Shown: piece after piece, positions 8,937 to 35,009 of the stretch | Layout of the letters: every line of letters starts with the position of its first letter | How positions within the stretch are numbered: position 1 is the stretch's first letter | Assembly (NCBI GenBank): GCA_030248225.1 | Contig: JASANE010028048.1 | Span: forward strand, 186,001-250,000 | Direction: 5' to 3' | DNA length: 64,000 nt | Source: Trileptium ribeirensis | Taxonomy: Eukaryota; Nematoda; Enoplea; Enoplida; Thoracostomopsidae | The notes under the pieces: generated by a model | What the model was told of the DNA's origin: nothing | The model's input: the letters and a program-made list of their open reading frames with translations, nothing else | Database searches by the model: none | Made by a program: the position numbers and the translations under genes

Positions 8937-11442
8937 GTCAAACGTACATCATTTGGAAAGTTTAAATCGTTTAAGAAGTAAAGTAATTTCAGAATTAGAT
9001 GTCTAAAAACACTGAATACATTCAAATTGATATAACCGCATCCACTTTTAATCTGAAACTGTGTCAAGCGTAATATGCACGGTAAAACTACCATTATGAA
9101 ACAATAAATTGTGCTATATATTCAGTTCCCAATATAGGCAATAGGCGTTGACGAACTTGGTCGTAAAATCAGTCGTTATTTACTCAAATTTTGTCAATGT
9201 CGCACTAATCAAAGATTGGAAATAAAACTTTTTGTATAATTTAGCAAAAATGTGGTTTCGTTTTATTAGAAAAATATATATATTTACCGACATGAAATTG
9301 TTTTCGCAGAACCACAACTGGTCGGCGCTCGCTTTGTATCATTATTTGGTAATGCGTGTACTATATGGTGAGAATTTAGTTGTGTGATGGCAAAACGGTT
9401 TGTGCTTCAGACAACAAGCAACGTGCTGGTTCATGGAAGCATTTATATGTTTTGTTATTTTGAAACTTATAATATAGTATGTATTGGTCAAAAACTGTGT
9501 TTCGATGTTTTGTCTTAAATGAAACAATCGTTTAAACGAAAAAACTAGTTGCGAATGGATAATATTAATACTAAATATTAAGGCCTATATTCCGTAATAT
9601 TAAGGACTCAACTTCCTTAAAAACATGCGATGGGAAAATTTCTTAAATTAAGGATAAAGAAAAAATTTTACACTTGGTGCAAAATTCCTAAAGATTAAAG
9701 GAAACTCTTAGATATTAGGGAAAAATTCCTTTTCTCAGCAGTCCGATATTTTTGGGAAATGTTTTAGTTATACTAAATATTAAGGAATGTATTTCTTAAC
9801 GTTAAGAAAAATAGTATTCAGTATTACGGAAATTTTGTACTGAATACGTAGGAGTAGGTAAAATTATAACACTACAGAAGGGACTTAACACAGAAATGCA
9901 AACTACGTATTCATTATATTAGTCCACATATTCTTTAATTTGAATTTTCTCTATAAACTAGTTTTCTTTGAAAGTTTGTGGTCTAAAACTCCTTCAAAAA
10001 AGTCCACCCCATAACCCCTAATAATAATTTTTGCATTCTTTCCAATGAAAGAGGTTCCAGTGGACTATCTTCAACGAATAAATAATTAAAATGCAGCGTT
10101 TTGGATATTTGAATTACTAAAACTGACTGTGACCATCATATACAAAATAAGATCTAATGATTAGAATGACTGGCTGACATTACTGTTAACGTTTATACTG
10201 CTGACATATTTTACTTTGGACAGGTACACTAATCAGACTTCTGAGGTTGAGAACAGAAACTGAGTGAAATATCATTATCTAATGTGAATCTGTCGTGGTG
10301 CGAAAACTGGACGAGAATTTAGATGTTCTATTTCTGGTTTATACGGCTCTCCAAGCTCCACGAGCACGACTTATGCATAGATTCTATAAGAAATGTTCAA
10401 CAGAAAAGCATCTTGGTATAGATTCTACTTTTACATGTTATTTACAATTTTTGTGAACAAAATGATATTTCTGGTATATACCAGTTGGTATACATTCTTA
10501 ATTTCTGTGGTATAATTGCATTACGTGGTTACTAAAAAGGTGAAATATCAAACATTTCGCATTAAAACGCTGTTGAGAAAGCTGGTTTAAATTCATTTAT
10601 GTCGTCACATTTACTTCGAATTTGTTCGCGAACAGAGACAGATAGCAATTGAAAACTATGGTAATCGTCATGGAACTGTCATAGGTTGATTATATTTCAT
10701 TACTTTTGGATTAGCAGTGAATCGAATCCACTTTCTTACTTGTTCATTAACAACAGAATCGGACTCGACATCGCATTTTACGAAATACGATGGTGAGCGG
10801 GGCATGTTAAAGTTTAGTAGCCTAAAATCACATTTATAATTTCCATGATTGAAAAGTAGTAAATAATGTTTACGATAAAAGTAACATAATCTCTGTGTTT
10901 CTAAAAACAGTTTTCAGCATTAATGGTATTGTATGGAGTTAGAATAAGCCAAGTCAACTCTCTCGGCTTCGCCAATGTAATGCGCACCTTTCATACCTGA
11001 AATTATATCGGTATTTAAAAAGAAATATTTTTCTATATATTTGGGCAATTGTTCCTACTTAATTATAATTAGGAAATTATACCCTATTATCATAAGGATA
11101 ATTTCTTGGCATGCAGGTAATTTTTCCTAGCTAATAAAGTTAGGAAACTATGCCTATCATTGTCATAGGGAACAATTTCGCTCATATGTGATAACAAAAT
11201 CTTTAGGTAAAAATTTGTATGAATAGTGAGGAAGTTAGTATTGAACGTTCAGTACTAACGTTTTTAGGAAATATTTCACATAAATTTTAGCATTTATAGG
11301 GACGAGATAATTTCTTACACATAAAAGAATATTTTCCCCAATTCGTAAATTTCCTTAATTTTAAGGATAATATTCCTTTAGATTCAGTGCCAAAGTTTTA
11401 TATTGAATATCTACTTTAACATTATTCAATACCAAGAACAAC
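8937..11442. other. AT-rich non-coding, TTAAGGAA-rich repeats
   Basis: No gene. About 9560-9850 and about 10990-11420 are dense in TTAAGGA and TCCTTAA words and share GTACTGAA and TATTCARTA phrases in opposite orientation. The Polinton may therefore sit beside, or in, an older AT-rich foldback repeat. Exact ends could not be fixed. Confidence 0.35.
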
Positions 11443-12290
11443 AGTAGATGTAAAATGGGGGTTCTGCCCCCCCTCCCCCTCAATAAGGATATATATCCTT
11501 ATAAGGATATATATCCTTATGAGGATATATATCCTTACGGAGGGGGAGGTCTGTATGTAAATATATATAAGTATTATATGTGTGTAAGGATATATCCTTA
11601 TTGAAGGGTAAGGATATATATCCTTATATATATACTATATGTATTATATACGCGTAATGATATATCCTTATTGAGGGGTAAGGATATATATCCTTATATA
11701 TACTATATGTATTATATACGCGTAAGGATATATCCTTATTGAGGGGTAAGGATATATCCTTATATATATACTATATGTATTATATACGCGTAAGGATATA
11801 TCCTTATGGAGGGGTAAGGATATATTTTTGCCGAACACCGCAAGGTTTTGCATACGTGTTAGGATATAAGCTTATAAGGATATATATCCTTTGTATAAGC
11901 TTATAAGGATATATATCCTTACTGAGGGGTAAGGATATATATCCTTACTGAGGGGAAGGAAAGTCTGTATTAATATATAATATATATATATTGTAAGGAT
12001 ATATATCCTTATTGAGGGGTAAAGTATACCCCTACCACCACTAGGTGTTGCATACGTGTAAGGATATATATCCTTGCTGAAAAAGTATATAAAGTCGTGT
12101 TTCTTCAATTTTACCATCAGTTTGTGTTTTCTTTCATAGAGTTTGGTTGTTTTTCTGAGTTCGCTCGATTTCTTACAATCAGTTTGTATTTTTCTTTCGT
12201 AGTCTTCGTTCCTTCGGAGTTGGCTCGATTTTCACACCACCCTATGTGATGGTATCGACCACTGTAAAGGTAACCTTTGCCAAAATTTCC
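11443..12290 (+). repeat. Left Polinton terminal inverted repeat
   Basis: About 848 bp, matching the reverse complement of 33558-34639 from AGTAGATG inward to CCAAAATTTCC. The outer two thirds is an array of palindromes AAGGATATATATCCTT with spacers such as ATTGAGGGGTAAGG and TATTATATACGCG. The inner third is ordinary sequence containing a promoter. The two copies differ in palindrome copy number, which explains the length difference. Confidence 0.92.
12086..12121 (+). promoter_or_regulatory. Inward Pol II core promoter in left TIR
   Basis: TATATAAAG at 12086-12094 lies 33 bp upstream of the A of an initiator-like ATCAGTTTG (A at 12119), the normal TATA-to-start spacing. The leader that follows is duplicated in tandem: a second ATCAGTTTGT occurs at about 12179, about 60 bp downstream. 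The same arrangement occurs in the right TIR and, diverged, before the NADAR gene. It probably drives the first rightward gene through a leader intron ending TATATTTCAG at 12590. Confidence 0.65.
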
Positions 12291-12600: not shown

Positions 12601-13086
12601 ATGGATTCTATTGAGGATACTATGGATATTGATTTTACGAAAGATGATGAATTAAATTATTGGGCTAATAAAATATATGATAATATAGATTTAACAAATT
12701 GTACTGATAGTGATTGCGTAATGGATGAACAATTCTGGGATGCGCTCAAACGATCAACTGGATTTGATGTTATGCGGCTCAAGAACAAAGTACATCAAAT
12801 GTGCAATGACGCTTTATCTTTTAAAGTTGCTAAACAACATTTGATGGATCAACAAGTTAAGACTATAATGTCAACATTGGGACAACATTATATTGATAAT
12901 TGTTATGCGTGCAAAGAAGATTTACCTGGTCAAGGTGGACATTTAATGGCAGGTGGATGCATGGATGACAGGTGCTATTGCGAACACGATGTAAAGATGA
13001 TGTGTGGAAAGCTTGATGTTGCATTTACTGACGAATTGTATACTAACATCAAATATAAACAGAACGTTGAGTATTATCGATTTTAA
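12601..13086 (+). CDS. Small Cys-rich Polinton protein (N-terminal gene)
   Basis: 161 residues. The start chosen is ATG 12601, because a splice-acceptor-like TATATTTCAG ends at 12590, 10 nt upstream, and the sequence before it is AT-rich and not coding-like. The N-terminus is acidic. The middle is helical. Residues about 112-135 hold a cluster of Cys and His (NCYACKEDLPGQGGH then GGCM and CYCEH). A C-x-x-C...Q-x-x-H...C-M arrangement of this kind precedes PolB in other metazoan Polintons, as far as I recall, and is probably a metal site. Function unknown. It is followed after 38 bp by PolB and lacks the TTCTTAAAAAGG motif, so it is probably transcribed from the TIR promoter. Confidence 0.75.
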   Translation: MDSIEDTMDIDFTKDDELNYWANKIYDNIDLTNCTDSDCVMDEQFWDALKRSTGFDVMRLKNKVHQMCNDALSFKVAKQHLMDQQVKTIMSTLGQHYIDNCYACKEDLPGQGGHLMAGGCMDDRCYCEHDVKMMCGKLDVAFTDELYTNIKYKQNVEYYRF

Positions 13087-13090
13087 TAAC

Positions 13091-13100
13091 TCTTAAAAGG
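13091..13100 (+). promoter_or_regulatory. TCTTAAAAGG motif before PolB
   Basis: Copy of the recurrent element motif (four-A form), 24 nt before the PolB ATG at 13125 and just after the stop of the preceding gene. Confidence 0.7.
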
Positions 13101-13124
13101 AACCAAATATTAACTTAAATAACA

Positions 13125-16100
13125 ATGGCTTTTATCTGTGACATTTGTAAACGCTTATTTACTCGTCATGATCACATGGTGCGTCATCAGCGGTCAGTAC
13201 ATCATACTACACCGTTTGGATGTCATCTTTGTGATCGACTATTTACTCGCAAAGATAACCTACAACGTCATTTGTCTACTCATTCAATTCAATCGATGGA
13301 TTTTGGTGCACTTAGCACCAAAAGTCATGTTATCGATTACGGTCAACCTATCAGCAAACAACACCAGCATCAACCTGTTAATGCTTCAACTCAATCGAGT
13401 GATTTCGGCGAGCCCGGCGCTAAGCGTCAACGTCGTATTATCGATTATGGTCAACAAATTGAGCAACAACAATCTCATCAACAAAAAGCTCATCGTCAGC
13501 TATTACCGCAATCGGATAGTGATGCATTGGATCAGCTTCATGCGATGGCGGAACAAATCAATCAGAGCGAGCGAAGTCGGCAATCAACAACTGTCGAAGA
13601 ACAACAAACAGTCAAACTGCTACAGTGGATGAAGGCGCTGAAAGGTTATGCTCGCAGTTACTACCTGGTACCACTCCAGGTAGTCAGCGACCTTTCGGTA
13701 TTTTTCAATCAATCTCGATCAATGCTGCAATCGTTGCTCAAGAAGGAGAAGAAACGCGGCATTAAATTATGGGTCAGCGTTCAATGTGTGCTGCAGAAGT
13801 TGGATCAAACACAGCTCACAGCGCATTTCAACAGCAAAGCTCGTATAATATTGCCTGGATCTGACATTGATGGGGAAATCACCGATTTGTTCGATGAATT
13901 AATCAGGAAGTTGGATGCGTTCGAAGCGAAGGGGTCTGGTTGGGTATTGCAGGATGTTCGACACGCAGATGTTCATTTAAGCATCTACAGACCTCTTCGT
14001 GGCAAGTCGTATAAGCAGTTACCTCAACATATTCGCGACAAGAAAGCGATACTGAACATTCAGAACAGTGATAACAAATGCTTCCTGTGGAGTGTGCTTG
14101 CATCAATTCATCCAATGGATCGCAAAGATCATGCTGAACGCGCTGGTAGTTATGAAGCGTTCGCTCATGAACTTAATATGGAGGGTATTGAATATCCTGT
14201 CAAGTTATCGGATATTTCCAGGTTCGAAAAACTTAATAATATTGCTGTCAACGTTTATGGTCTTGAAGACGACAGAGTAATATACCCTATATGCATTTCA
14301 AACGCTAGTTATGAACGCTATGTACATTTATTACTGTACAAATATCACTATTGCTTAATACGCCAACTTGACCGACTATTATATGATCAAAACAAGCATA
14401 AAACCGCAAAGTTTTTCTGTCCGAAATGTCTTATACCACTCTACTCAATGGAGGCACGCGATGAACATGTAACGAGATGTCGCAATGATCAGCCTACACG
14501 TATCGAAATGCCTGAACGAAGCTCAACACTACAATTTAACAACTTACATCGAATGCAGCGGGCACCTTATGTCATCTACGCAGACTTTGAATGCCTGCTT
14601 GAAAAAGTACAATCATGTCAACCTTCAACATCTGCGTCATTTACGAATGCGTATCAGCGACACACACCCTGCGGTTACGGATTGGTGGAATGTTTCGGTT
14701 GCTGCAACGACAAGGTGAAAATTCGCGATCCTGTTATTTATCGCGGAGATAATGTTATACAAACATTTTTACGTAATGTTGTTGAATTGTCTGAACGATA
14801 TCAACACCAATATATGAACAATCAGAAATCGATTATTATGACCAATGTTGATAAACTTAACTTTAAATACTCTACTCGTTGCTATTTATGTCAACAATTC
14901 ATGAGTAAAACTGACAAAGCGAAAGACCACTGTCACTTCTGTGGTCGATTTCGTGGACCTGCACACCTTAAGTGCAACATTGGATACCGGCTCAGTCGCG
15001 ACGTAACGGTTTTATTTCACAATTTACGTCGGTACGATGGACATCTTATTATGCAGGAACTTGGAACTGTATGCAAGGAAATGGGTCTGGAGGTTGAGTG
15101 TATTGCGAAAGGAATGGAGGACTACATGACGTTCTCTATTAAACGGCGGTCAAATAAACGAACTGATGACGATGAAAACGCGGATGGTATTGACTGTATA
15201 CATGCCTGTGATGACCGTGATACTATCGGATGGAAGATACGATTTATTGACACTATTCAATTTTTACCTTCATCTTTAGAATCACTGGTTAACAATTTAA
15301 AGAAGAACGGCAACGATGGATTCACAGCGATGAAACAAAACTTTGATAATTTGGACATGATGCTGCGTAAGGGTGTTTACCCTTACGAATATATGGATTG
15401 TGTGGATAAATTTGCAAAACAATCGTTACCTGATAAATCACAATTTTATTCAACTCTTACTGATTGTAATATATCTGACGAAGACTATGAGCAAGCGAAA
15501 ACTGTTTGGAACGCTATGAACATTAATAATCTTGGTGAATATCACGACTTATATTTAAAAACTGACGTGTTATTATTGTGCGATGTATTTGAAAACTTTC
15601 GCTTGTTTGCTATTGATAAATATGCTCTTGATCCTGTACATTATATTACGTTACCTAGTTTTGCATGGGATGCTTGCTTAAAGCGTACTGGTGTCAAATT
15701 AGATTTACTTTCTGACCCTGACATGTATGCCTTCTTTGAAGAAGGTATACGTGGAGGGGTCTCAGTAATTTCACATCGGTACGCTAAAGCAAACAACCCT
15801 TATGTTGATGGATATGATGATACGCTTGCTAAATTGTACATAATGTATTTGGACGCAAATAACTTGTATGGCTGGTCTATGATTCAAAAATTACCTATGA
15901 ATAACTTTCAGTGGTTATCACGTCACCAAATTGACAGTATCGACTGGTCAACAGTCACTACTGACGGCTATACAGGTTATGTGCTAGAGGTTGATTTGGA
16001 CTATCCTATTGAATTACATGATTTGCATAATGATTATCCTCTTGCACCGGAACGTTTGAATGTGACTAGTGATATATTATCTAATTATTGTGTTGATGTT

Positions 16101-17183
16101 AAACGTTCGTTGAATGTAACAAATGGTTCTGTTCAGAAACTTGTACCTAACTTGAAAAATAAACAAAAGTATAAGCTGCATATCAGAAATTTACAGTTAT
16201 ATCTTAAACTTGGGATGAAACTGAAATATGTACACAGAGTGATTTCGTTTCATCAAAGTGACTGGATGGAACCATATATTACGTTTAATACTGATATGCG
16301 TAAAAATGCCTCAAGTGACTTTGAAAAGGATTTATATAAACTGTTGAATAACGCTGTCTTCGGTAAAACGATGGAGAATGTACGTGGTTATGTTGATATA
16401 AAGTTGGTCACAAATGAAGAAAAGTATCTTAAACTTGTATCTAACCCTCGTTATAATATGTCTTGTATATTTAATGAACATTTAGTTGCTGTAAAAATGA
16501 ACAGGAAATCTGTTAAATTGTGTAAACCTATTTATGTTGGTTTTAGTGTTCTCGATCTATCGAAATGTTTGATGTATGACTTTCATTATAGCTATATGAA
16601 ACAACTGTATAATGATAAATGTAAATTACTATTCACTGATACTGATTCTTTGTGCTATGCTGTTGACACTAATGATATATATGAAGATATGCATGCAGAT
16701 CAACAAAACTTCGATACGAGTGAATACTCACCTACTCATTTTTTGTTTTCTTTGCAAAACAAAAAGGTTTTGGGGAAAATGAAAGATGAGACGGCGGGTA
16801 CACCTATCGAAGAATTTGTTGGTCTGCGTTCTAAAATGTACAGTATTAAATGTGGTGGTACTGAAAAGAAACGTGCTAAAGGTGTTAAGAAAAGTGTTGT
16901 GAAAAAACAACTAATGCATCAAAATTATTTGAATGCTTTATTTTCGAAAACAAGTTCTCGTCATATCATGAATCTTATTCGATCGAATAAACATATATTG
17001 CATACTGTTTCACTAAACAAAACAAGTCTATCTGCTTATGATGATAAAAGATATATTTTGGATGATGGCATTAGTTCTTATGCTTATGGACATTATTGTA
17101 TTGATGAATTTAGTGATGTTACTGATTCTATATCTATATCTGATGATCAATTTCTTGCATTACTTAATGACATGTGTGATTAA
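13125..17183 (+). CDS. polB: Protein-primed family B DNA polymerase
   Basis: 1352 residues, intact. It replicates the element from its termini. Two C2H2 fingers lie at residues 3-26 and 31-53 (CDICKRLFTRHDHMVRH and CHLCDRLFTRKDNLQRH). A Cys-His domain follows (C319 in NKCFLWSVL, H408 in YKYHY). Exonuclease motifs: DFE at 487-489, N633...YD638, and Y810...D814. A zinc-ribbon-like insert spans 586 to about 617 (CYLCQQF...KDHCHFCGRFRG). Polymerase motifs: A at D910 (DANNLYGWSM), B at about 1073-1080 (KLLNNAVFGKT) and C at D1172/D1174 (DTDS). All catalytic residues are present. The C2H2 head is an add-on also seen in this element's ATPase. AATAAA overlaps the stop codon. Confidence 0.97.
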   Translation: MAFICDICKRLFTRHDHMVRHQRSVHHTTPFGCHLCDRLFTRKDNLQRHLSTHSIQSMDFGALSTKSHVIDYGQPISKQHQHQPVNASTQSSDFGEPGAKRQRRIIDYGQQIEQQQSHQQKAHRQLLPQSDSDALDQLHAMAEQINQSERSRQSTTVEEQQTVKLLQWMKALKGYARSYYLVPLQVVSDLSVFFNQSRSMLQSLLKKEKKRGIKLWVSVQCVLQKLDQTQLTAHFNSKARIILPGSDIDGEITDLFDELIRKLDAFEAKGSGWVLQDVRHADVHLSIYRPLRGKSYKQLPQHIRDKKAILNIQNSDNKCFLWSVLASIHPMDRKDHAERAGSYEAFAHELNMEGIEYPVKLSDISRFEKLNNIAVNVYGLEDDRVIYPICISNASYERYVHLLLYKYHYCLIRQLDRLLYDQNKHKTAKFFCPKCLIPLYSMEARDEHVTRCRNDQPTRIEMPERSSTLQFNNLHRMQRAPYVIYADFECLLEKVQSCQPSTSASFTNAYQRHTPCGYGLVECFGCCNDKVKIRDPVIYRGDNVIQTFLRNVVELSERYQHQYMNNQKSIIMTNVDKLNFKYSTRCYLCQQFMSKTDKAKDHCHFCGRFRGPAHLKCNIGYRLSRDVTVLFHNLRRYDGHLIMQELGTVCKEMGLEVECIAKGMEDYMTFSIKRRSNKRTDDDENADGIDCIHACDDRDTIGWKIRFIDTIQFLPSSLESLVNNLKKNGNDGFTAMKQNFDNLDMMLRKGVYPYEYMDCVDKFAKQSLPDKSQFYSTLTDCNISDEDYEQAKTVWNAMNINNLGEYHDLYLKTDVLLLCDVFENFRLFAIDKYALDPVHYITLPSFAWDACLKRTGVKLDLLSDPDMYAFFEEGIRGGVSVISHRYAKANNPYVDGYDDTLAKLYIMYLDANNLYGWSMIQKLPMNNFQWLSRHQIDSIDWSTVTTDGYTGYVLEVDLDYPIELHDLHNDYPLAPERLNVTSDILSNYCVDVKRSLNVTNGSVQKLVPNLKNKQKYKLHIRNLQLYLKLGMKLKYVHRVISFHQSDWMEPYITFNTDMRKNASSDFEKDLYKLLNNAVFGKTMENVRGYVDIKLVTNEEKYLKLVSNPRYNMSCIFNEHLVAVKMNRKSVKLCKPIYVGFSVLDLSKCLMYDFHYSYMKQLYNDKCKLLFTDTDSLCYAVDTNDIYEDMHADQQNFDTSEYSPTHFLFSLQNKKVLGKMKDETAGTPIEEFVGLRSKMYSIKCGGTEKKRAKGVKKSVVKKQLMHQNYLNALFSKTSSRHIMNLIRSNKHILHTVSLNKTSLSAYDDKRYILDDGISSYAYGHYCIDEFSDVTDSISISDDQFLALLNDMCD

Positions 17184-17187
17184 TAAA
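17182..17187 (+). promoter_or_regulatory. AATAAA polyadenylation signal at PolB stop
   Basis: AATAAA begins inside the TAA stop codon of PolB, so the mRNA 3' end probably forms in the 100-bp gap before the integrase gene. Confidence 0.5.
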
Positions 17188-17250
17188 TGATTTATATGTG
17201 TTGTCTCAAGTTTTGAACATTTATCTGAACAAAAATTACTGAGCTGATAG

Positions 17251-17260
17251 TCTTAAAAGG
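17251..17260 (+). promoter_or_regulatory. TCTTAAAAGG motif before integrase
   Basis: Same ten bases as before PolB, ending 22 nt before the integrase ATG at 17283. Confidence 0.7.
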
Positions 17261-17282
17261 AATTATTTTTTAACTTGTAAAC

Positions 17283-18344
17283 ATGGAAAAACACTTGAAA
17301 GATATCTACTATGATGCAACTAATGTTGCAGGGTTTTCAACAGCTCCTAAGTTGCTTAAAGAAGCCCTGCAGCGTGAGGTACACGCTAGTTATAACGATG
17401 TGAAGGAATGGTTGAAAGGTCAAGAAACATATACATTGCACAAGCCGCGACGTCTTAAATTTAGACGACGTCGAACTGTTGTTAAAGGTATCGGTGATTT
17501 GTATCAGGCCGATTTAGCTGATATGTCAAATTTACCAAAATACAATGATGGCTATAAATATTTACTTGTAATTATAGACTGCTTTACAAAATTTGCTTGG
17601 GTGATCCCAACAAAAACAAAAACAGCTTCCACCATATTAGCTGCCCTAAAACAGGTCCTCGACAGTAATACCCCCCAGAACTTTCAAACTGATAAAGGTA
17701 AGGAATTTGTCAATAATTTGGTTTACAACTATTGTAAAACTAAAAATATTAACGTGTACACTGCTCAAAACAAAGAGACAAAAGCTTCTATTGCTGAAAG
17801 GTTTATACGGACTCTCAAGAGTAAAATCTATAAATACCTGACACACAAAAATTCATACAGATACATTGATGTTTTACCACAAATTCTTCATGCATACAAC
17901 AGTACCGAAAACAAATACGGTTTTACTCCTTCGAATGTTACTACAGAAAATGAAGATGATATACGGAAAAAATTATTTTCTGCTAAGAATTTTGAGGTTA
18001 GGTATAAATATAACATCGGTGATATCGTTAGAGTGTCGAAGGAGCGGTTGCCATTTGAACGGGGGTTTAACCAGCTTTGGTCACGCGAAATATTTACAAT
18101 AGATCAACAATTTCCTTATGATCCACCAGTTTATGAATTAATGGATGCCAGTAATGAAAAAATTTTGGGAAGATTTTATGCTGAAGAACTTCAAGATGTA
18201 AAAATTTTGGATGATACATACAAAATTGAGAAAATTCTAAGGAAACGCAAAACAAAAAGTGGAACTGAATATTTAGTAAAATGGCTTGGATATCCCAATT
18301 CAATGAATTCGTGGGTTCATGAACGTGATCTTAGACCCGTTTAG
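17283..18344 (+). CDS. int: Retroviral-type integrase with chromodomain
   Basis: 353 residues. It inserts the element into the host genome. A basic N-terminal region (to about 70) is followed by an rve core with the DDE triad D77 (LYQADLADM), D137 (FQTDKGKEF) and E172 (IAERFIRTLK). The last two acidic residues are 35 apart, as in the D,D35E family. After an SH3-like C-terminal segment comes a chromodomain (about 310-353: YKIEKILRKR, EYLVKWLGYP, WVHERDL), which in related elements can steer insertion to methylated histones. Intact; single start at 17283 after the motif at 17251. Confidence 0.96.
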   Translation: MEKHLKDIYYDATNVAGFSTAPKLLKEALQREVHASYNDVKEWLKGQETYTLHKPRRLKFRRRRTVVKGIGDLYQADLADMSNLPKYNDGYKYLLVIIDCFTKFAWVIPTKTKTASTILAALKQVLDSNTPQNFQTDKGKEFVNNLVYNYCKTKNINVYTAQNKETKASIAERFIRTLKSKIYKYLTHKNSYRYIDVLPQILHAYNSTENKYGFTPSNVTTENEDDIRKKLFSAKNFEVRYKYNIGDIVRVSKERLPFERGFNQLWSREIFTIDQQFPYDPPVYELMDASNEKILGRFYAEELQDVKILDDTYKIEKILRKRKTKSGTEYLVKWLGYPNSMNSWVHERDLRPV

Positions 18345-18365
18345 ACTTACAGAGATGTGAGTTGT

Positions 18366-19030
18366 ACAGTAGTACCAAAATGGAGTACCTCCAAGGATAC
18401 AAAATAGGGTTACATTTGTATCCGTTGGGGTACCTAATGACATAGAAATGTACGCATAGGGGTACAAAATATGGTACAAACGTACCCGTAGGGGTACAAA
18501 AAGGGGTACAAACGTACCAGTAGGGGTACAAAATAGGGTACAAACGTACCCGAAGGGGTACAAAGTAAGGATGCAAACGTAGCCGTGGGGGTACAAAGTA
18601 AGGGTACAAACGTAACCGTAGGGGTACAGATGTAACCGTAGGGGTACAAAATAGGGGTACAAACGTACCCGTAGGGGTACGGGTAAAAAATAGGGGTACA
18701 AACGTATATAGGGTACAACGTACCTAGGGGTACCGTGGGGGTACAAAGTAAGGGTACAAACGTACCCGTAGGGGTACAACGGGTACAACATATGGGTACA
18801 AACGTACTCGTAGAAGTACAAAGTAAGGATACAAACGTAGCCGTGGGGGTACAAAGTAAGGGTACAAACGTAACCGTAGGGGTACAAAATAGGGGTACAG
18901 ATGTAACCGTAGGGGTACAAAATAGGGGTACAAACGTATCCGTAGGGGTACAAAATAGGGGTACAGATGTAACCGTAGGGGTACAAAATAGGGGTACAGA
19001 TGTAACCGTAGGGGTACAAACGTAGCCATA
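18366..19030. repeat. 33-bp minisatellite
   Basis: Tandem units built on GTAGGGGTACAAA with a typical 33-bp period (GGGGTACAAAATAGGGGTAC, then variable CAGATGTAACC or CAAACGTACCC). It fills the gap between integrase and ATPase. Because 33 is a multiple of three, several frames stay open by chance on both strands and encode only repeats of the unit (for example LYPYGYVCT). These do not look like genes. The unit number probably varies between copies. Confidence 0.93.
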
Positions 19031-19085
19031 GCGCTATAATACAGGAATACAAACGTAGTCTGAGAGCACAAATGTAGCACTAATA

Positions 19086-19097
19086 TTCTTAAAAAGG
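19086..19097 (+). promoter_or_regulatory. TTCTTAAAAAGG motif before ATPase
   Basis: Full-length form of the motif, 24 nt before the ATPase ATG at 19122, placed directly after the minisatellite. Confidence 0.75.
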
Positions 19098-19121
19098 AAT
19101 AGGTTGCTACTTTGCTTAACT

Positions 19122-19871
19122 ATGGATTACAAGTGTGTCAATTGTAAACGTGGCTATACTTCTCGACAACATTTGCACAGACATAAGAAAAATTGTGAGC
19201 CACAACAAAATACTCCAGTTTGTCATCTTAGTGTACAAGGTTCAACCACGGTACAGTTACCTTTGGAATTACCCTTCACATGTGTTGTGAGTGGTCAAAC
19301 AGGTAGTGGAAAAACCCAATGGATATATCGATTGCTGAAACATGGTATTTTTGATCAATCGGTAAACAAAATTGTATACTGTTACAGTATTTATCAAGAT
19401 ATTTATACTCGCATGATTGCAGAAATACCTAATATGGAACTATGTGAAGGTTTACCTACAGAATTTCCTGTATCTTCAGGCGGGCACACACTCTGTGTTT
19501 TAGACGATTTAATGATTGAAGCTGCAAATGATAAAAAATTAGCGGCAGCGTTTTCAAAAATGCGACACAACAACCTCAGCACTATTTTTGTTACACAAAA
19601 TTTATATCATGAAGGAAAATATATGCGAACTATAACACGTAACGCACAGTATATGGTTTTATTTCCAAATTTTAGAGACCAATCAATGATTTATACATTA
19701 GGAAGGCAAATGTGGCCATCTAAACCAGGATTTCTACTAAGCGCATTTCAACAAGCTACTCAAAAGCCATATGGGTATCTGTTCTTAGATTTAAAATCAG
19801 CTACAGAAAATATTTTGAGAGTAAGAGAATGTATTTTTCCAGACGACGAAGAAATGTTTGTATATTCTTAA
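19122..19871 (+). CDS. FtsK/A32-type genome-packaging ATPase
   Basis: 249 residues from ATG 19122. An upstream TTG extension is rejected because the motif at 19086 and the conserved 24-nt spacing point to this ATG. Walker A is GQTGSGKT at 58-65; Walker B is LCVLDDLM with acidic residues at about 128-129; FVTQNLY follows as the sensor-like segment. This is the short packaging ATPase of Polintons, which drives DNA into the capsid. Unusually, the N-terminus carries a zinc finger (YKCVNCKRGYTSRQHLHRH...C, residues about 2-25) like those on PolB. The stop codon lies inside the next copy of the motif. Confidence 0.93.
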   Translation: MDYKCVNCKRGYTSRQHLHRHKKNCEPQQNTPVCHLSVQGSTTVQLPLELPFTCVVSGQTGSGKTQWIYRLLKHGIFDQSVNKIVYCYSIYQDIYTRMIAEIPNMELCEGLPTEFPVSSGGHTLCVLDDLMIEAANDKKLAAAFSKMRHNNLSTIFVTQNLYHEGKYMRTITRNAQYMVLFPNFRDQSMIYTLGRQMWPSKPGFLLSAFQQATQKPYGYLFLDLKSATENILRVRECIFPDDEEMFVYS

Positions 19872-19877
19872 AAAGGG
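19865..19877 (+). promoter_or_regulatory. TTCTTAAAAAGGG motif, overlaps ATPase stop
   Basis: The TAA of TCTTAA is the ATPase stop codon. The motif's GG ends 27 nt before the next ATG at 19904. Confidence 0.75.
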
Positions 19878-19903
19878 TTGAGTGTGTGTGTACTTTAGTA
19901 AAA

Positions 19904-20077
19904 ATGGCTGTTGATCAAAATGTTGCAGCGTTACATTTTCTCAACAACTCATCATCTCAAATGATATCTGCTGTTATTAAACTAGCAAATGTGTCACTAA
20001 TAAAAGCATTTGCTGAAATTGCGTACAACATAGATAAAAATAACAAAATTCTTAAAAGGATTGTAAACAAAAAATAA
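19904..20077 (+). CDS. Small conserved Polinton protein, possibly frameshifted
   Basis: 57 residues from ATG 19904. The helical body (AALHFLNN...SLIKAFAEIAYNI...KILKR) resembles a short protein that I recall from many metazoan Polintons, where it continues into a Lys-rich tail of about 100 residues in total. Here the frame stops at 20075-20077 after an A-run. In the -1 frame an uninterrupted Lys-rich stretch continues to a stop at 20158, overlapping the next gene. Either the gene lost its tail through an indel, or ribosomes slip at the A-run. Function unknown; a nucleic-acid-binding or core role is possible. Confidence 0.65.
   Translation: MAVDQNVAALHFLNNSSSQMISAVIKLANVSLIKAFAEIAYNIDKNNKILKRIVNKK
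20049..20059 (+). promoter_or_regulatory. TTCTTAAAAGG motif inside small gene
   Basis: Located within the coding sequence of the 57-residue protein (it encodes ILKR), 90 nt before the ATG at 20150. Its spacing is unlike the other copies, so it may be coincidence or serve a longer leader. Confidence 0.45.
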
Positions 20078-20149
20078 CGATTCATAAAAAGAAAAAGTTG
20101 CTTAAACCAAGTATAGTAAGACAACTGACGAAATATTTTGTTAAACATT

Positions 20150-20551
20150 ATGGCGCGTAAAATGGCAGTAGTTCCAGTTAGTTGGTTAGATGCAATGAGA
20201 CAAGTAACGGCTAAAGACGACATTAAACCTGTGAAAAACGACGTTGTTACTTATGAAAGTATAGAAAAACCAGATCTGTCACAAATGTTTCCGAAAAATT
20301 TAAGAAGCAAGGCCAAATTAATGCTAAACAGCATTAAAAACTTAAACTTAAACGATAACAATCAAATTATATATCCAGATGGTACTGTGGGTTCTAATAT
20401 AATTGATTTAGTGAAATATTTTGTATCTGATATCAACTTTTCACCCCCTCGCCCACTCGATTCAGATAAATTTCAAACACTATTAGCAGGAGTGCCAATA
20501 ACAGCATTTGGGAGGGGGAGAATGACGTCATCGTGGAAGAGATTATATTAG
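20150..20551 (+). CDS. Conserved Polinton structural-type protein
   Basis: 133 residues from ATG 20150; an upstream TTG is rejected. The start overlaps the end of the shifted Lys-rich frame of the preceding gene. The N-terminus (MARKMAVVPVSWLDAM) and a C-terminal module (FPKNLRSKAKLMLNSI, then GSNIIDLVKYF and LLAGVPI) follow a pattern that I recall as a conserved but unnamed protein near the ATPase in animal Polintons. Its role is not established; a minor virion component is my guess. Its last codons lie over the CRE and CCAAT boxes of the promoter for the next gene. Confidence 0.7.
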   Translation: MARKMAVVPVSWLDAMRQVTAKDDIKPVKNDVVTYESIEKPDLSQMFPKNLRSKAKLMLNSIKNLNLNDNNQIIYPDGTVGSNIIDLVKYFVSDINFSPPRPLDSDKFQTLLAGVPITAFGRGRMTSSWKRLY

Positions 20552-20621
20552 CCAATCAGCGTCGAGAACGCTTTACAAAAACTATAGTTAAGCCGTGTAT
20601 CTTCAATTTTATAATCAGTTT
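20523..20621 (+). promoter_or_regulatory. Stand-alone Pol II promoter of NADAR-TBP pair
   Basis: A perfect palindromic CRE TGACGTCA at 20523-20530; an NF-Y-type AGCCAATCAGC with CCAAT at 20552-20556; a TATA-like CTATAGTTAAG at 20582-20592; and an initiator ATCAGTTTA with its A at 20617. The CCAAT box is about 62-65 bp and the TATA-like box about 34 bp upstream of that A. From about 20592 to 20640 the sequence is a diverged copy of the TIR promoter and leader (shared CTTCAATTTTA and TTTTCTTTCATAGAG). The CRE and CCAAT boxes have no counterpart in the TIRs. Confidence 0.7.
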
Positions 20622-20670
20622 ATGTTTTCTTTCATAGAGTACATACGTTTTTTAATTATTCGCTCTCATT

Positions 20671-21183
20671 ATGGAACACACTAAATATTGTACAAGCACT
20701 AGTGGCAAAAAGCTTGTTTTATTTCGATCTGGATGGAGCGTATTCAGCAATTTCAATATTTCTCGTATTGTGGTCAACGGTGTCAAATACAACTGCGTCG
20801 AACAATATTATCAAAGCGAGAAAGCTCGATATTTCAACGATGAAGAAACGTATGCTGCAATCATGGCTGCTTTCAGACCTTCACATCAAAAGAAGCTGAG
20901 CTGGCAAATCAAAAACTTTGATCTACAACAATGGCTAGCTCATGGAAACGCTAACAAGGTCATGAAGCGAGGACTCAAGGCAAAGTATGAACAATCACCT
21001 AAAGTGCAGGCAGCTCTTCACGCTACTGGGGACGCTATAATTGCTGAAGCGTCTGAATGGGATCGGTACTGGGGTATTGGTATCAGTATTTTCGACGATG
21101 CGAATCGCGATATCGATCAATGGATTGGCTGTAACTATTTGGGACGTTTGTGGATGGAAGTTCGAGATGAAGCTGATAACTGA
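20671..21183 (+). CDS. NADAR (YbiA-like) domain protein
   Basis: 170 residues, a single full-length NADAR domain. Signatures: FSNF (about 27-30), CVEQYYQSEKA (about 43-53), the EASEWDRYWGIG segment (about 126-137) and the C-terminal WIGCNYLGRLWMEVR. NADAR proteins are glycosidases acting on ADP-ribose-type N-glycosidic bonds. Some bacterial and phage members remove ADP-ribose from DNA guanines and so undo a defence modification. I infer, without proof, a similar protective role here. It has its own promoter rather than the TTCTTAAAAAGG motif and is followed after 2 nt by the TBP-like gene, so the two are probably co-transcribed. Confidence 0.92.
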   Translation: MEHTKYCTSTSGKKLVLFRSGWSVFSNFNISRIVVNGVKYNCVEQYYQSEKARYFNDEETYAAIMAAFRPSHQKKLSWQIKNFDLQQWLAHGNANKVMKRGLKAKYEQSPKVQAALHATGDAIIAEASEWDRYWGIGISIFDDANRDIDQWIGCNYLGRLWMEVRDEADN

Positions 21184-21185
21184 AT

Positions 21186-21710
21186 ATGACAGTGGAGCAA
21201 ATAACTAATATGACAATAACTTTAAATTTGAAATGTAACATTGATTTATATTCTTTGTGTATTGATAATTTTGTATATAATGCTGCTCGTTTTAATGGTG
21301 GTGTATGGAAATTTAAACCTCGCGGTACAGTGTTGTTATTTCGCAATGGAAAAATTGTTTTAGTTGGTGTTAAGTCTAAATCGGACGCAGCTTCTATTTT
21401 ATCCATTGTCGCCAGCACTTTGAGAAAGCTAGGTTATAAATGTTCGAGTGAGTTACCGATTAATATTAAAAACGTTGCAGGTGTAATGCGTTTGAATATA
21501 AATTTCAGTTTGCTAGTGCTTTATGAGGAGTTGAGGAAGAAATATAAAGTAATGTATGAGCCTGAGTTACACAACAGCCTGCATCTGCGGATAGGAACCT
21601 GTACTGCACTTGTGTTTTGTAATGGAAATGTAATTGTAACTGGATGTAAAAGTATAACTAATTTCAATCAGTGTATAATAAAATTGTATAATATTCTTAA
21701 AAAGGATTAA
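21186..21710 (+). CDS. TATA-binding protein (TBP)-like protein
   Basis: 174 residues spanning both halves of the TBP saddle with almost no extra sequence. Repeat 1: RFNGGVWKF (about 35-43), TVLLFRNGKIVLVGVKS (about 48-64), LRKLGY (79-84). The linker INIKNVAGVMRL matches the K-I-x-N-x-V-G-S segment. Repeat 2: YEPELHNSLHLR (124-135), TALVFCNGNVIVTGCKS (140-156), LYNILKK. Of the four DNA-kinking phenylalanines of TBP, three are conserved (F36, F52, F144) and the one in ELFPG is replaced by H129. Its proposed role is binding a TATA-like element to direct the element's own transcription. Start ATG 21186 is 2 nt after the NADAR stop. Confidence 0.88.
   Translation: MTVEQITNMTITLNLKCNIDLYSLCIDNFVYNAARFNGGVWKFKPRGTVLLFRNGKIVLVGVKSKSDAASILSIVASTLRKLGYKCSSELPINIKNVAGVMRLNINFSLLVLYEELRKKYKVMYEPELHNSLHLRIGTCTALVFCNGNVIVTGCKSITNFNQCIIKLYNILKKD
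21694..21705 (+). promoter_or_regulatory. TTCTTAAAAAGG motif before penton gene
   Basis: Lies in the last codons of the TBP-like gene (encoding ILKK), 24 nt before ATG 21730. Confidence 0.75.
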
Positions 21711-21729
21711 TGTATGTATAAATACAACT

Positions 21730-22350
21730 ATGGAGGTTGTTGTAGTTTGCGATTTGAATGACTCAGTTGTGGAGTTTCCAACAGCGTTTTGTGCAACCCA
21801 AGTTAAAGTTTTGGATATTGAGTTGCCATCAAAGTACATAAACATTAGTAGCAGTCAAATTGAATACTTTAATAATAATTCATGGAAACGATTTACGGTT
21901 GAAGCTGGATATTATACAAGAGATAGTTTGCTGTCATTTTTCAATTCGTTTAGTACAAGTATACAGTTTACATATGATCATTGCTGTGATCGCGTTAGTG
22001 TATATTGTTTTGATAATGCTGAAATAAAGTTATCACCCGAAATTCAAAATATGTTTGGATTTCAGCAGGCACACTTGACAAATGGTAAACACCAAGGTTC
22101 GAAAACTTTTAATCTTTTTTCCAACAAACCTATGTTTATTCTCAGTTCCTTTGTTCGCAATCGTACAGTTAATGGTAAATTTAAACCCATACTGCATGTT
22201 CTGTCAAATTCTGGGGTTAAGAATACTGTTACTCTAGGTTTAAACAATTGTGTGTTTAAAGTTTTAGAATTTGAAATTGCAGATATAAATTTTAATCCTG
22301 TTAAGTTTTTTGAAAATGGCAAAATGGTTATACGAATGTGGTTCTCGTAG
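21730..22350 (+). CDS. Probable penton / minor capsid protein
   Basis: 206 residues, beta-rich, with no membrane segment. Motifs such as KVLDIELPSKYINI near 31-45 and FTVEAGYYTRDSLLSFFNS near 57-75 resemble the single-jelly-roll minor capsid protein of animal Polintons, which carries a GYYT-x-x-S-L phrase. The position fits too: directly before the core peptide and major capsid genes. Expected to fill capsid vertices. The family call rests on pattern and position. A structure prediction should show one jelly roll. Confidence 0.65.
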   Translation: MEVVVVCDLNDSVVEFPTAFCATQVKVLDIELPSKYINISSSQIEYFNNNSWKRFTVEAGYYTRDSLLSFFNSFSTSIQFTYDHCCDRVSVYCFDNAEIKLSPEIQNMFGFQQAHLTNGKHQGSKTFNLFSNKPMFILSSFVRNRTVNGKFKPILHVLSNSGVKNTVTLGLNNCVFKVLEFEIADINFNPVKFFENGKMVIRMWFS

Positions 22351-22354
22351 AAAA

Positions 22355-22366
22355 TCCTTAAAAAGG
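22355..22366 (+). promoter_or_regulatory. TCCTTAAAAAGG motif before core peptide gene
   Basis: Near-palindromic copy (ATCCTTAAAAAGGAT), 27 nt before ATG 22394. It is the only copy beginning TCC rather than TTC or TC. Confidence 0.7.
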
Positions 22367-22393
22367 ATTATTTCCTGAAAATAACATTTCATA

Positions 22394-22558
22394 ATGGCTG
22401 TACCGCTGTGTTTTGCTGGGCCAAAGCTGCCACGAGCTATGTCGGTGAAATCGGTATCTAAGAATACTAGACGTAAAAAGAGAGTTCTTAAAAAGAAGAA
22501 AGTTCTTAAAAAGGGTAAAGTTAAGAAAAAAACACGAAAATATCGCAAACGAAAATGA
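22394..22558 (+). CDS. Tiny Lys/Arg-rich core peptide (pX/mu-like)
   Basis: 54 residues. A short hydrophobic head (MAVPLCFAGPKLPRAM) is followed by a strongly basic tail in which more than half of residues 26-54 are Lys or Arg. This is the composition of DNA-condensing core peptides such as adenovirus mu (pX) and similar small genes beside Polinton capsid genes. It sits between penton and major capsid and overlaps the major capsid start by 4 nt (ATGA). Its Lys-rich tail is encoded by two copies of the transcription motif (22485 and 22503), so this DNA has a double job. Alternative: a nucleolar-localised regulatory peptide. Confidence 0.65.
   Translation: MAVPLCFAGPKLPRAMSVKSVSKNTRRKKRVLKKKKVLKKGKVKKKTRKYRKRK
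22485..22514 (+). promoter_or_regulatory. Two TTCTTAAAAAGR motifs inside core peptide gene
   Basis: TTCTTAAAAAGA at 22485-22496 and TTCTTAAAAAGG at 22503-22514. The second ends 40 nt before the major capsid ATG at 22555. Both are read in frame as VLKK. Confidence 0.6.
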
Positions 22559-23835
22559 ACGTGTGCGGAATCGAAAAGCTGGACTGGTCTGGAGGCCAGT
22601 ACCCTGCTCAACAGTCGATCGTGTCTACGCAACTAATCGAAATTTCTTGTGAAACAGCGCTGCCAAGCTCAGATTCAGATGATACATTACGGTTTAAAAT
22701 TAGTGAAAGTTCATTTGATGTAATTGATTTATCTCAAATATTTGCATATATTGATTTTCAAGTATTGAGGGGGGATGGAAAGGAAATAAAGGATTTGGCT
22801 AAAAAAATAGCACCCTGTAATATGTTTGGATATGCCCTGTTTTCCACGGTTGAAATGAAAATTAATGGAGAGCCAATAACATTTAATCAAAAGCATTACC
22901 CTTGGATGATATATGTGCTTAACATGTTGCACATGAGTGTAGAGCAACGGAACCAGTATTTGCAAGGAAGTATTTACAAACAAGATGAATATTATGCCTT
23001 CGACGATTTTGAGAGTGATGGATTCATTTACAGAAACGCATTGGTCATGGCATCTCAAAAATGTGAACTCTATTTTCCAATTATTACTGATGTTAATTTA
23101 ATACCACGATATCTACCACCGAAATGTAAGGTCGAGTTTGAGTTCACACGAAGTGTACCATCACTGATACTTCAGCATAATACAGAAGAAAAATATCTTG
23201 TTCGTATAAATGACTTTAAGTTGTATGTATCGAAATCAAAATTGAGCAAGCAAGCATTAGAACATCACAACAAACTTTTAAATGCTAAGTTTCCTGCTAT
23301 AAGGTATAAAGTTCAAACACTGTCTGTAAACAAAGGGTTGCAAAATATGGATTGGACAATTTTTGAAGGGACATTACCTAGACGTATATACATTTGGGGA
23401 ATAACACAGGAGGCCTATGCTGGTGCACCTAAACTAAATTTATTTAAGTTTAGTTTACCAGATATGGATAGTTTTACGTTGTTTATGAATGACGATCGGT
23501 ATCCATGTAACGTGCCTTTACCGTGTAAAACATCTAATGATATGAGATTATTCTACAATACGCTTTACGCGCTAAATTACAGGGCTGATAATCTAGGTTT
23601 GAGTGAAGTTGCGTTTAGGAAAAATGCAGGATATCAAATAATTTGTGTTGATCTAAGCAAGGATCACAGCAGTGATTGTAATTACCTTTCGAACCCAGTA
23701 GATGGTCAAATTCGGCTTTCTATTGATTTCACTAAAGTGTTGGAACAAGCTATAATAGTTTTCGCGATGGGTGAATTTACAGCGGAACTCAACATTAGTG
23801 CAAACAGGGAAGTGTTCTGGAACAAAATGTCTTAA
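22555..23835 (+). CDS. Major capsid protein, double jelly roll (hexon-like)
   Basis: 426 residues, intact. Recognisable Polinton/adintovirus capsid features: an N-terminal YPAQQSIV region, DLSQIFAYIDFQV, a Phe/Tyr-rich centre (EYYAFDDFESDGF), LPRRIYIWGITQEAYAG near 271-287, the strongly conserved-looking MDSFTLFMNDDRYP near 305-318, and a C-terminal LEQAIIVFAMGEFTAEL. The length is typical for a tandem double jelly roll that forms pseudo-hexameric capsomers. Its start is embedded in the preceding core peptide gene, and its stop lies inside the next motif copy. Presence of intact MCP, penton and ATPase implies virion-forming ancestry. Confidence 0.9.
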   Translation: MNVCGIEKLDWSGGQYPAQQSIVSTQLIEISCETALPSSDSDDTLRFKISESSFDVIDLSQIFAYIDFQVLRGDGKEIKDLAKKIAPCNMFGYALFSTVEMKINGEPITFNQKHYPWMIYVLNMLHMSVEQRNQYLQGSIYKQDEYYAFDDFESDGFIYRNALVMASQKCELYFPIITDVNLIPRYLPPKCKVEFEFTRSVPSLILQHNTEEKYLVRINDFKLYVSKSKLSKQALEHHNKLLNAKFPAIRYKVQTLSVNKGLQNMDWTIFEGTLPRRIYIWGITQEAYAGAPKLNLFKFSLPDMDSFTLFMNDDRYPCNVPLPCKTSNDMRLFYNTLYALNYRADNLGLSEVAFRKNAGYQIICVDLSKDHSSDCNYLSNPVDGQIRLSIDFTKVLEQAIIVFAMGEFTAELNISANREVFWNKMS

Positions 23836-23839
23836 AAGG
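23829..23839 (+). promoter_or_regulatory. GTCTTAAAAGG motif overlapping capsid stop
   Basis: TCTTAA contains the major capsid stop codon. The motif ends 24 nt before ATG 23864. Confidence 0.7.
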
Positions 23840-23863
23840 AGTAAAGGTATACTGAAATGAATC

Positions 23864-33557: not shown

Positions 33558-34639
33558 GGAAATTTTGGCAAAGGTTACCTTTACAGTGGTCGATACCATC
33601 ACATAGGGTGGTGTGAAAATCGAGCCAACTCCGAAGGAACGAAGACTACGAAAGAAAAATACAAACTGATTGTAAGAAATCGAGCGAACTCAGAAAAACA
33701 ACCAAACTCTATGAAAGAAAACACAAACTGATGGTAAAATTGAAGAAACACGACTTTACATACTTTTTCAGCAAGGATATATATCCTTACACGTATGCAA
33801 AACCTAGCGGTGGTAGGGATATATGATTACCCCTCAATACACACATTATATAATATGTGAAGTATATAATATATATGTATTAAGGCTTTTCTCACCCATA
33901 AGGATATGTATCCTTATAAGGATATATACAGACCTACCCTCCGTAAGGATATATATCCTTACGTATATATAATACATATGTAAGGATATATATCCTTACC
34001 CCTCAATAAGGATATATCCTTATAAGCTTATATAACACGTATGCGAAACCTCGCGGTGGTAGGGGTATACTTTACCACTCAATAAGGATATATATCCTTA
34101 CAATATATATTATATATTAATACAGACTTTCCTTCCCCTCAGTAAGGATATATATCCTTACCCCTCAATAAGGATATATATCCTTATAAGCTTATACAAA
34201 GGATATATATCCTTATAAGCTTATATCCTAACACGTATGCAAAACCTTGCGGTGTTCGGCAAAAATATATCCTACCCCTCCATAAGGATATATCCTTACG
34301 CGTATATAATACATATAGTATATATAAGGATATATCCTTACCCCTCAATAAGGATATATCCTTACGCTTATATTATACATATAGTATATATATAAGGATA
34401 TATAGCCTTACCCCTCAATAAGGATATATCCTTACGCGTATATAATACATATAGTATATATATAAGGATATATATCCTTACCCTTCAATAAGGATATATC
34501 CTTACACACATATAATACATATATATATTACACACAGACCTCCCCCTCCGTAAGGATATATATCCTTACAAGGATATATATCCTTATAAGGATATATATC
34601 CTTATTGAGGGGGGGCAGAACCCCCATTTTACATCTACT
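33558..34639 (-). repeat. Right Polinton terminal inverted repeat
   Basis: About 1082 bp, inverted relative to 11443-12290. The inner 200 bp (CCAAAATTTCC to the promoter) is near-identical to the left. The outer part has more copies of the palindrome AAGGATATATATCCTT. The outermost bases CATCTACT mirror AGTAGATG. Confidence 0.92.
33729..33762 (-). promoter_or_regulatory. Inward (leftward) promoter in right TIR
   Basis: On the minus strand TATGTAAAG (33762-33754) is 33 bp upstream of the A of ATCAGTTTG (33729), mirroring the left TIR. The TATA box differs by one base (TATGTAAAG against TATATAAAG). It would serve the leftward genes of the right arm. Confidence 0.6.
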
Positions 34640-35009
34640 ATCGTACTTTTGAGCCGCCTTTTTTGGCGTGAGCGGATACACCCGAGAACCGCCGTCGTGG
34701 CGGCGACTCTAGGTTTGAATCTGGTCTACTAGTTCAGAGGCCACCCCAGAAAAATTGAACTCGAACGCACCCACTCATGGGGGGTCAACGCGAGAATCTT
34801 GATGCATTTGTAAGCCAGGGGAGGCACCAACAACACACTGGAGGTGGGCACACGACCCACAGTGCCAATAGTGGTTACGCCACTGTGCTAGTTTCTATTA
34901 ATCATCGCTGCGTATAAATATGCTGTAGATCTTAGCGCGAAATTCGTGACACTGGGGTGGGGCAATATAGTGCTATTTATTTAAAACCAAACACTATAAT
35001 AACTATAGT
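34640..35009. other. Unassigned flank of the Polinton
   Basis: No gene. About 34700-34745 has a GGTTTGAATCTGG word resembling a Pol III B box, but no tRNA fold could be supported. Confidence 0.35.

Follow-up and report, generated by a model that had tools for sequence, protein, structure and literature searches.

What is the short motif that recurs ahead of gene after gene in a Polinton-type element of the nematode Trileptium ribeirensis, and which protein would read it? The element lies within a 64-kb stretch of contig JASANE010028048.1 (positions 186,001 to 250,000; hereafter the window). An original prediction held that a fixed sequence, TTCTTAAAA(A)GG, precedes eight to nine of its genes at near-constant distance and, if it works as a TATA-like box, would place the start of transcription almost at the start codon. 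The same prediction correctly named a TATA-binding protein (TBP) gene in the element and drew no tie between it and the motif. Our analysis suggests that the two belong together. The motif is probably (we put the probability at about 0.65) the box that forms the core promoter of late genes in a lineage of Polintons with a TBP gene, and the element's TBP and its altered TATA-like box look like a private switch for the late structural genes.

The existence of the motif is confirmed. What its copies have in common is the core CTTAAAA(A)GG, present nine times on the + strand, the strand of the genes that it precedes (starting at 13092, 17252, 19088, 19867, 20051, 21696, 22357, 22505 and 23831), and neither on the − strand nor in the remainder of the 64 kb. 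Against this, 500 dinucleotide shuffles of positions 12291–24700 gave a mean of 0.084 copies and a maximum of one on the + strand, so that the comparison with shuffled sequence proposed with the original prediction comes out in its favour. The prediction was too strict about the form: the full TTCTTAAAA(A)GG is spelled by five of the nine copies, the other four opening with CTC, GTC (two) and TCC, so that the core and the GG stand and the leading TTC does not. The strength of the motif lies in the GG and in its placement; TTCTTAAAA alone is unimpressive across the window, with seven occurrences against 2.8 expected, a number reached in 2 of 100 shuffles.

From the end of the box to the next ATG the gaps are, in order, 24, 22, 24, 27, 90, 24, 27, 40 and 24 nucleotides (nt), exactly as predicted, including the 40 nt before the major capsid protein (MCP) gene and the 90 nt before the gene at 20150. 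Eight of the nine copies fall between −50 and −29 of 13 genes, an interval covering 286 of 12410 positions (P ~7e-13, for an interval picked post hoc with the data already seen). Also as predicted, the motif is absent within the window before the NADAR-domain and TBP genes and before the leftward genes. Three copies lie within coding sequence, namely the gene of 57 amino acids (aa), the tail of the TBP gene and the core-peptide gene, and two share bases with the stop codon of the gene before (ATPase and MCP). Because the distance from the preceding stop varies from −53 to +744 nt and the distance from TTAAAA to the next ATG is 30–36 nt in seven of nine cases, the number expected from the prediction, we assign the box to the downstream gene; the same figures rule out a 3′-end signal of the preceding gene. 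Both in the window and in related copies the box is A/T-rich and directional, as expected of a TBP-dependent TATA promoter.

Related elements are abundant in the host genome. The 687-Mb assembly holds at least 98 capsid-gene matches at 69–100% identity, at least 150 scored ATPase matches and at least 150 TBP-family matches (repeats counted apart). Upstream regions differing at no more than five positions in 45 nt were collapsed into what we call distinct copies, and these were scored by the hexamer CTTAAA. Loci were left out where the match began more than 15 residues in or had no ATG there (integrase 3, 57-aa gene 1, membrane protein 1, PolB 1) or where less than 70 nt lay upstream (integrase 12). 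CTTAAA is found 28–60 nt upstream of the start codon in 17 of 21 distinct copies of the integrase gene (31–39 nt in those 17), 13 of 13 of the ATPase, 8 of 9 of the 57-aa gene, 6 of 7 of the penton, 5 of 5 of the core peptide, 8 of 9 of the MCP and 6 of 7 of the membrane protein; among these, the longer CTTAAAA(A)G is spelled by 14, 13, 8, 6, 5, 8 and 3 respectively. The box is thus found ahead of the same genes in relatives, even where the TBPs are only ~50% identical, and its absence from such relatives would have told against the prediction. In five 9.3–9.9-kb pieces of other copies the counts of CTTAAAA(A)G are 6, 7, 9, 9 and 7 for the gene strand and 0, 0, 1, 0 and 0 for the opposite strand, with shuffle means of 0.20–0.53 and a maximum of 3. 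By eye, CTTAAAA(A)G also occupies the place matching that of the window's box within the 57-aa gene in loci L042–L045.

The boxes that lie in open reading frames (ORFs) are not simply a by-product of coding. In the tail of the TBP gene the leucine is spelled CTT in eight of nine distinct contexts, the ninth encoding phenylalanine, and CTT makes up 19% of leucine codons in 14 sampled ORFs, which rules out a plain coding explanation. By eye, a change from five to four A's shifts the reading frame of the TBP tail, and the box is retained nonetheless.

In loci L028 and L029 additional boxes, at 3705 and 3700 respectively and in capsid-gene orientation, stand 41 and 44 nt ahead of related ORFs of 106 and 107 aa. 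They suggest an unannotated late gene in some copies.

Searches beyond this genome added controls. No relative turned up in viral contigs scanned for MCP and TBP, whether the query was a single protein or an alignment, and neither protein had a match at E≤0.001 in protein searches; a scan of viral contigs with a PolB alignment gave two distant Polinton-like relatives, which served as controls (L001 and L002; nine ORFs searched in Pfam). In the parts of these two contigs that were examined, CTTAAAA(A)G occurs once and twice on the PolB strand and twice and never on the other, near the shuffle means of 0.6–0.8 and thus without enrichment, and no TBP was found among all six-frame segments of at least 40 aa compared with a TBP profile (best E 0.83); a sample of two contigs does not establish that box and TBP occur together. 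The same PolB alignment run against bacterial and archaeal genomes gave nine short contigs, used for motif counts only. These Polinton-like PolB genes (L003–L011) sit in contigs filed as Spirochaetes, Legionella and other bacterial genomes and are probably eukaryotic contamination of bacterial bins.

The distance between box and ATG has a sharp lower limit. For six genes (integrase, ATPase, 57-aa, penton, core and membrane) together with the window's integrase, 56 of 63 distinct copies have the first T of TTAAA at 30–43 nt from the ATG, with a mode of 32, and 50 of the 56 spell CTTAAAA(A)G. No CTTAAA is closer than 30 nt to the ATG of these six genes, and with the MCP included none is closer than 28 within 80 nt; the MCP box itself is at 31–39 nt in five of nine distinct copies. 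Genome-wide, TCTTAAAAAGG followed by ATGG occurs 11 times at gaps of 12–18 nt, 277 times at 19–25, 161 times at 26–32 and 12 times at 40–46, against 37, 20, 13 and 18 for reversed-pattern controls (counts of the five-A form only, with kin copies uncollapsed). In the available part of a study of mouse promoters, the spacing from TATA box to start is centred on 30–31 nt and is seldom below 29 (PMC1779604). ATGs closer than the limit would be missing because the box would set the start 30 nt downstream, and the pile-up at 30 nt points to very short leaders, of roughly 0–13 nt.

The stretch between box and ATG is consistent with this. Upstream ATGs number 23 there against 24.2 expected, and since they are not in short supply the stretch looks as if it lay outside the mRNA, although the counts are small enough for a weak depletion to escape; the MCP was left out because its leader is core-peptide coding sequence. 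Where the distance is 30–32 nt, A is the base at 28 nt from the first T in 19 of 20 copies and at 29 nt in 18 of 20, which could mark the start site or a translation context.

The motif might instead be a signal in the RNA, acting on translation or processing from within the leader. Such a signal would explain the restriction to the gene strand and the fixed place relative to the ATG, and it could adjoin the ATG, as the box at PolB does. It would not account for the sharp 30-nt lower limit at the other genes or for the upstream ATGs tolerated behind the motif, and we know of no eukaryotic RNA-level signal of this form. We consider it very improbable.

Several observations weigh against a late TATA-like box, one of them the placement at PolB. 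In 13 of 18 distinct copies of this gene the box lies 7–13 nt before the ATG; two more, of the window's family, have it in both places, one has it in the far place only and two have none. Near placement is also enriched genome-wide (172 against 34, for the four-A form and with the sites not individually checked for PolB identity). A box at 7–13 nt cannot be explained by a TATA role. As a uniform rule, the predicted TATA-like box with a start near the ATG is therefore not supported, given PolB; it is supported for the other six genes, on the 30-nt limit and the genome-wide spacing, and for the MCP in five of nine distinct copies, with further support from the undepleted upstream ATGs and from the element's own TBP. 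The fixed distance at issue is that from box to ATG, with a limit of 30 for the six genes that PolB disobeys. Other observations on the same side are the 7 of 63 distinct copies that lack a box at 28–60 nt; the conserved A at −3 (found in 27 of 28 copies with a short gap and in 28 of 35 with a longer one), for which a strictly leaderless mRNA would have no need; and the origin of all copies in one host genome, many of them close kin. The value of the box as a predictor of genes was gauged on 12 unassigned boxes, the L028 and L029 ones above included: those of L043 and L046 are followed by no ATG in the next 130 nt, six related copies have a box within the penton gene whose sole ATG is internal and in frame, at 26 nt, and one box in L044 stands 71 nt before NADAR. 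The box in L037 is 33 nt before the start of a cut-short penton gene.

PolB is best served by an alternative in which the box is an initiator and transcription starts inside TTAAAA, as it does within the TAAAT motif of poxvirus late promoters, giving leaders of mostly ~25–33 nt and very short ones for PolB. This is the sole simple model that fits the boxes at 7–13 nt; a minimum leader length could likewise set a lower limit near 30, and the A at −3 suits a transcribed leader. The other genes suit it not so well. Upstream ATGs are undepleted in what would then be leader, several of them, by eye, out of frame. Late initiators of the poxvirus type are used by viral RNA polymerases, and no polymerase of viral type was found among the 10 proteins searched in Pfam, which are not all ORFs of the window. 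An initiator would, moreover, leave the element's TBP without a site. On balance we judge it unlikely.

If the late TATA-like box is retained, PolB might have a different source of mRNA. Sites resembling splice acceptors (TTTCAG) often lie 10–80 nt before the PolB ATG (L044 and L083–L096, by eye), and because they are frequent there the PolB mRNA may be a spliced transcript from the terminal inverted repeat (TIR). Our guess is that a box at the PolB ATG would then switch off the TIR transcript once the element's TBP arrives. That the PolB box serves an overlapping ORF was considered and dropped: the window's 154-aa ORF has no counterpart of similar place and length in L042–L045.

The element's TBP provides a candidate reader for the box. 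The residue counts come from 25 copies whose ORFs are nearly complete, representing 23 distinct places and 16 clusters at ~95% (L018 and L042 are one place, as are L022 and L043, the latter seemingly damaged in mid-sequence; alignment A4 is without L019, which has a stop in frame). With yeast TBP numbering and DNA-contact roles as we take them to apply here, changes are seen in all 25 copies at four positions: V71T, T124V, F190H/Q and I194K/Q/H. Residues N69, F99, L114, F116, L205 and T215 are kept in all 25, N159 in 23 and F207 in 21; V161 varies. We assume that F190 and I194 belong to the lobe reading the 5′ half of the TATA box, the other two constant changes being in the N-terminal lobe; the 5′ half is also the unusual part of the box. 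Position 203 is not consistently changed, being V in 10, I in 8, T in 6 and S in 1, and we dropped V203T as a marker of altered specificity because T occurs in only 6 of 25. The YExEL sequence with the TFIIB-contact glutamates is present in all 25.

The host presumably keeps a TBP of its own, for which we take the best-scoring TBP-family match in its genome; the C-terminal lobe, the sole part fetched, has the usual residues and is canonical. The TBP-family matches in the host genome (at least 150, in which two repeats may count twice) lie in frames of about 176, 180, 196, 272 and 334 aa and perhaps fall into several classes.

With an ordinary TBP in the host, the box might be a plain, weak TATA variant for that protein, TTAAAA being near to tolerated TATA variants, and the element's TBP might be employed otherwise, for example as a decoy or in repression. 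Two things make this improbable: the TBP contact changes are kept in 25 copies, and a textbook TATA box, with CCAAT, stands before the NADAR-TBP unit in most distinct copies. Since that unit mostly has a textbook promoter, the change ahead of the late genes looks deliberate. Within 220 nt before NADAR-TBP, CCAAT and TATAWA are each found in 16 of 18 distinct copies, and 14 copies have the two together; the corresponding figures for CCAAT and TATAWA are 1 of 22 and 5 of 22 before the ATPase, and 0 of 5 and 1 of 5 before the integrase. The window's own copy keeps CCAAT and TGACGTCA and lacks TATAWA. To judge by these upstream sequences, most elements examined express their TBP-encoding unit from an ordinary TATA box.

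The left TIR has an ordinary TATA box as well. It carries GTATATAAAGTC at 12085–12096, where the right TIR has GTATGTAAAGTC, and a stretch resembling the one before NADAR follows. A 54-nt stretch past the NADAR promoter (20587–20640) is 89% like part of the TIR (12089–12142 and 33706–33759), and because of this likeness one of the two early promoters, that of the TIR or that of NADAR, may be a copy of the other.

An ordinary TATA box at the TBP unit suggests a cascade from host TBP to element TBP to late genes, a temporal order that we infer. Host TBP would read the TATATAAAG promoters of the TIR and of NADAR-TBP early; the element's TBP would accumulate, bind TCTTAAAA(A)GG and recruit host TFIIB and RNA polymerase II; and the integrase, ATPase, capsid and membrane genes would be transcribed from a point ~30 nt past the box that coincides with the start codon or precedes it by a few nt. 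We infer both the binding of the box by this TBP and the RNA start sites from sequence. We give even odds to the broader account, in which an animal Polinton lineage took a cellular TBP, altered its DNA-contact surface and paired it with a private TATA-like box. An element of 23 kb would thereby run RNA polymerase II transcription in two stages, early and late, with late mRNAs that are nearly leaderless, a herpesvirus-like solution independently reached. If true, a natural TBP–TATA pair has changed together beside an ordinary host TBP in one nucleus, and TBP specificity and short-leader translation are directly testable. A promoter code readable from sequence would also allow late genes to be predicted, including unannotated ones.

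Comparisons with known systems place this proposal. The late promoters of beta- and gammaherpesviruses, with their TATTWAA box, are likewise served by a virus-encoded TBP-fold protein: ORF24 of Kaposi's sarcoma-associated herpesvirus (KSHV), BcRF1 of Epstein–Barr virus and UL87 of human cytomegalovirus. A minimal herpesvirus late promoter consists of one altered TATA box ~30 nt from the start, as proposed here. According to the accessible portions of two reports, KSHV late boxes such as TATTAAAGG lie 30–32 nt from the start (PMC6541308), and ORF24 is a remote TBP mimic, found in a six-protein complex, without the acidic TFIIB-contact residues (PMC12529657). Boxes such as TATTAAAGG resemble the element's TCTTAAAAGG. 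The element nonetheless departs from the herpesvirus viral pre-initiation complex on both sides of the interaction, since its box is TCTTAAAA(A)GG and not TATTWAA, and its protein, plainly homologous to TBP, retains YExEL and with it the acidic TFIIB contacts. We regard its system as analogous to, yet no member of, the herpesvirus viral-TBP/TATT system.

The TATA box of RNA polymerase II promoters of the adenovirus major late type has a run of A then GG at about −30, as in the element. Adenovirus TATAAAAGG differs from CTTAAAAGG at two positions; the element's box has CTT and not TAT in its 5′ half, and a start codon at the expected start site. African swine fever virus supplies its own transcription machinery, whereas none was seen among the element's 10 proteins searched in Pfam. 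That DNA virus likewise encodes a predicted TBP-like protein, pB263R (PMC5825884, in the part available). A study of green algae, in its accessible part, describes TATA-binding proteins in elements ascribed to mirusviruses (PMC10675990). In the literature within our coverage on TBP, TATA boxes or promoters of Polintons, Mavericks and adintoviruses, from which most subscription journals are absent, we noticed no Polinton TBP or cognate late box.

The assignment of the element to the Polinton/Maverick (adintovirus-like) group rests on several features. As in other such elements, there are long TIRs, an rve integrase with a chromodomain and an A32-type packaging ATPase. PolB is of Polinton/adintovirus type by its homologues: 7929 of 8000 scored candidates reached E≤0.001, an adintovirus PolB among them, and PolB of the Corynactis coral adintovirus is 47% identical across the searched region. 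The element's TBP matches solved TBP structures down to E=3.1e-16. The names penton, core and capsid are putative and come from the original prediction; neither the penton-like nor the capsid-like protein had a Pfam match, and the best match of a capsid profile in the PDB had E 0.12. Features are collected in Table 1.

Table 1. Features of the Polinton element in the window; for each box the remark gives the distance from TTAAAA to the ATG.
Feature	Position	Strand	Remarks
Left TIR	11434..12290		pairs with ~33558-34648; main blocks 93-98% complementary
Canonical TATA box TATATAAAG in left TIR, putative early promoter	12086..12094	+	right TIR has TATGTAAAG
Box TCTTAAAAGG before PolB	13091..13100	+	32 nt
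Second, box-like CTTAAATAACA adjoining PolB ATG (10 nt)	13114..13124	+	usual place of PolB box elsewhere
PolB, 1352 aa	13125..17183	+	YLDANNLYGW and FTDTDS in translation
Box TCTTAAAAGG before integrase	17251..17260	+	30 nt
Integrase, rve and chromodomain	17283..18344	+	Pfam PF00665, PF00385
Box TCTTAAAAAGG before ATPase	19087..19097	+	33 nt
A32-like packaging ATPase	19122..19871	+	Pfam PF04665 (Pox_A32), E=4.7e-7
Box before 57-aa gene, on ATPase stop codon	19866..19876	+	36 nt
Box within 57-aa gene	20050..20059	+	98 nt ahead of 20150 gene
Host-type elements before NADAR-TBP: TGACGTCA (20523), CCAAT (20552)	20523..20556	+	without TATAWA here
NADAR-domain gene	20671..21183	+	Pfam PF08719, E=1.2e-36; no late box in window copy
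Element TBP, two TBP repeats, 174 aa	21186..21710	+	Pfam PF00352, E=3.4e-30; no late box
Box before penton-like gene, in TBP C-terminal codons	21695..21705	+	33 nt
Penton-like gene (putative)	21730..22350	+	ORF conserved in related copies
Box CCTTAAAAAGG before core peptide	22356..22366	+	36 nt
Box before MCP, in core-peptide codons	22504..22514	+	49 nt here; 31-39 nt in 5 other distinct copies
Major-capsid-like gene (putative)	22555..23835	+	at least 98 genome copies, 69-100% identity
Box before membrane-protein gene, on MCP stop codon	23830..23839	+	32 nt
Right TIR	33558..34648		inverted-repeat comparison

Three minor features of the element may be added. The 57-aa gene of the window is seemingly shorter than its relatives, and sequence like that of the relatives continues past its stop to the 20150 gene (19904–20150, compared by eye with L042–L045). 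A minisatellite of GGGGTACAAA-like units occupies 18380–19050, between the integrase and ATPase genes, and by eye such units also lie ahead of the ATPase box in other copies. Finally, the small proteins encoded at 24333–24656 (+) and 32425–32832 (−) share, by eye, a similar start and a REIxYW stretch, and may be paralogues, one at each end of the element.

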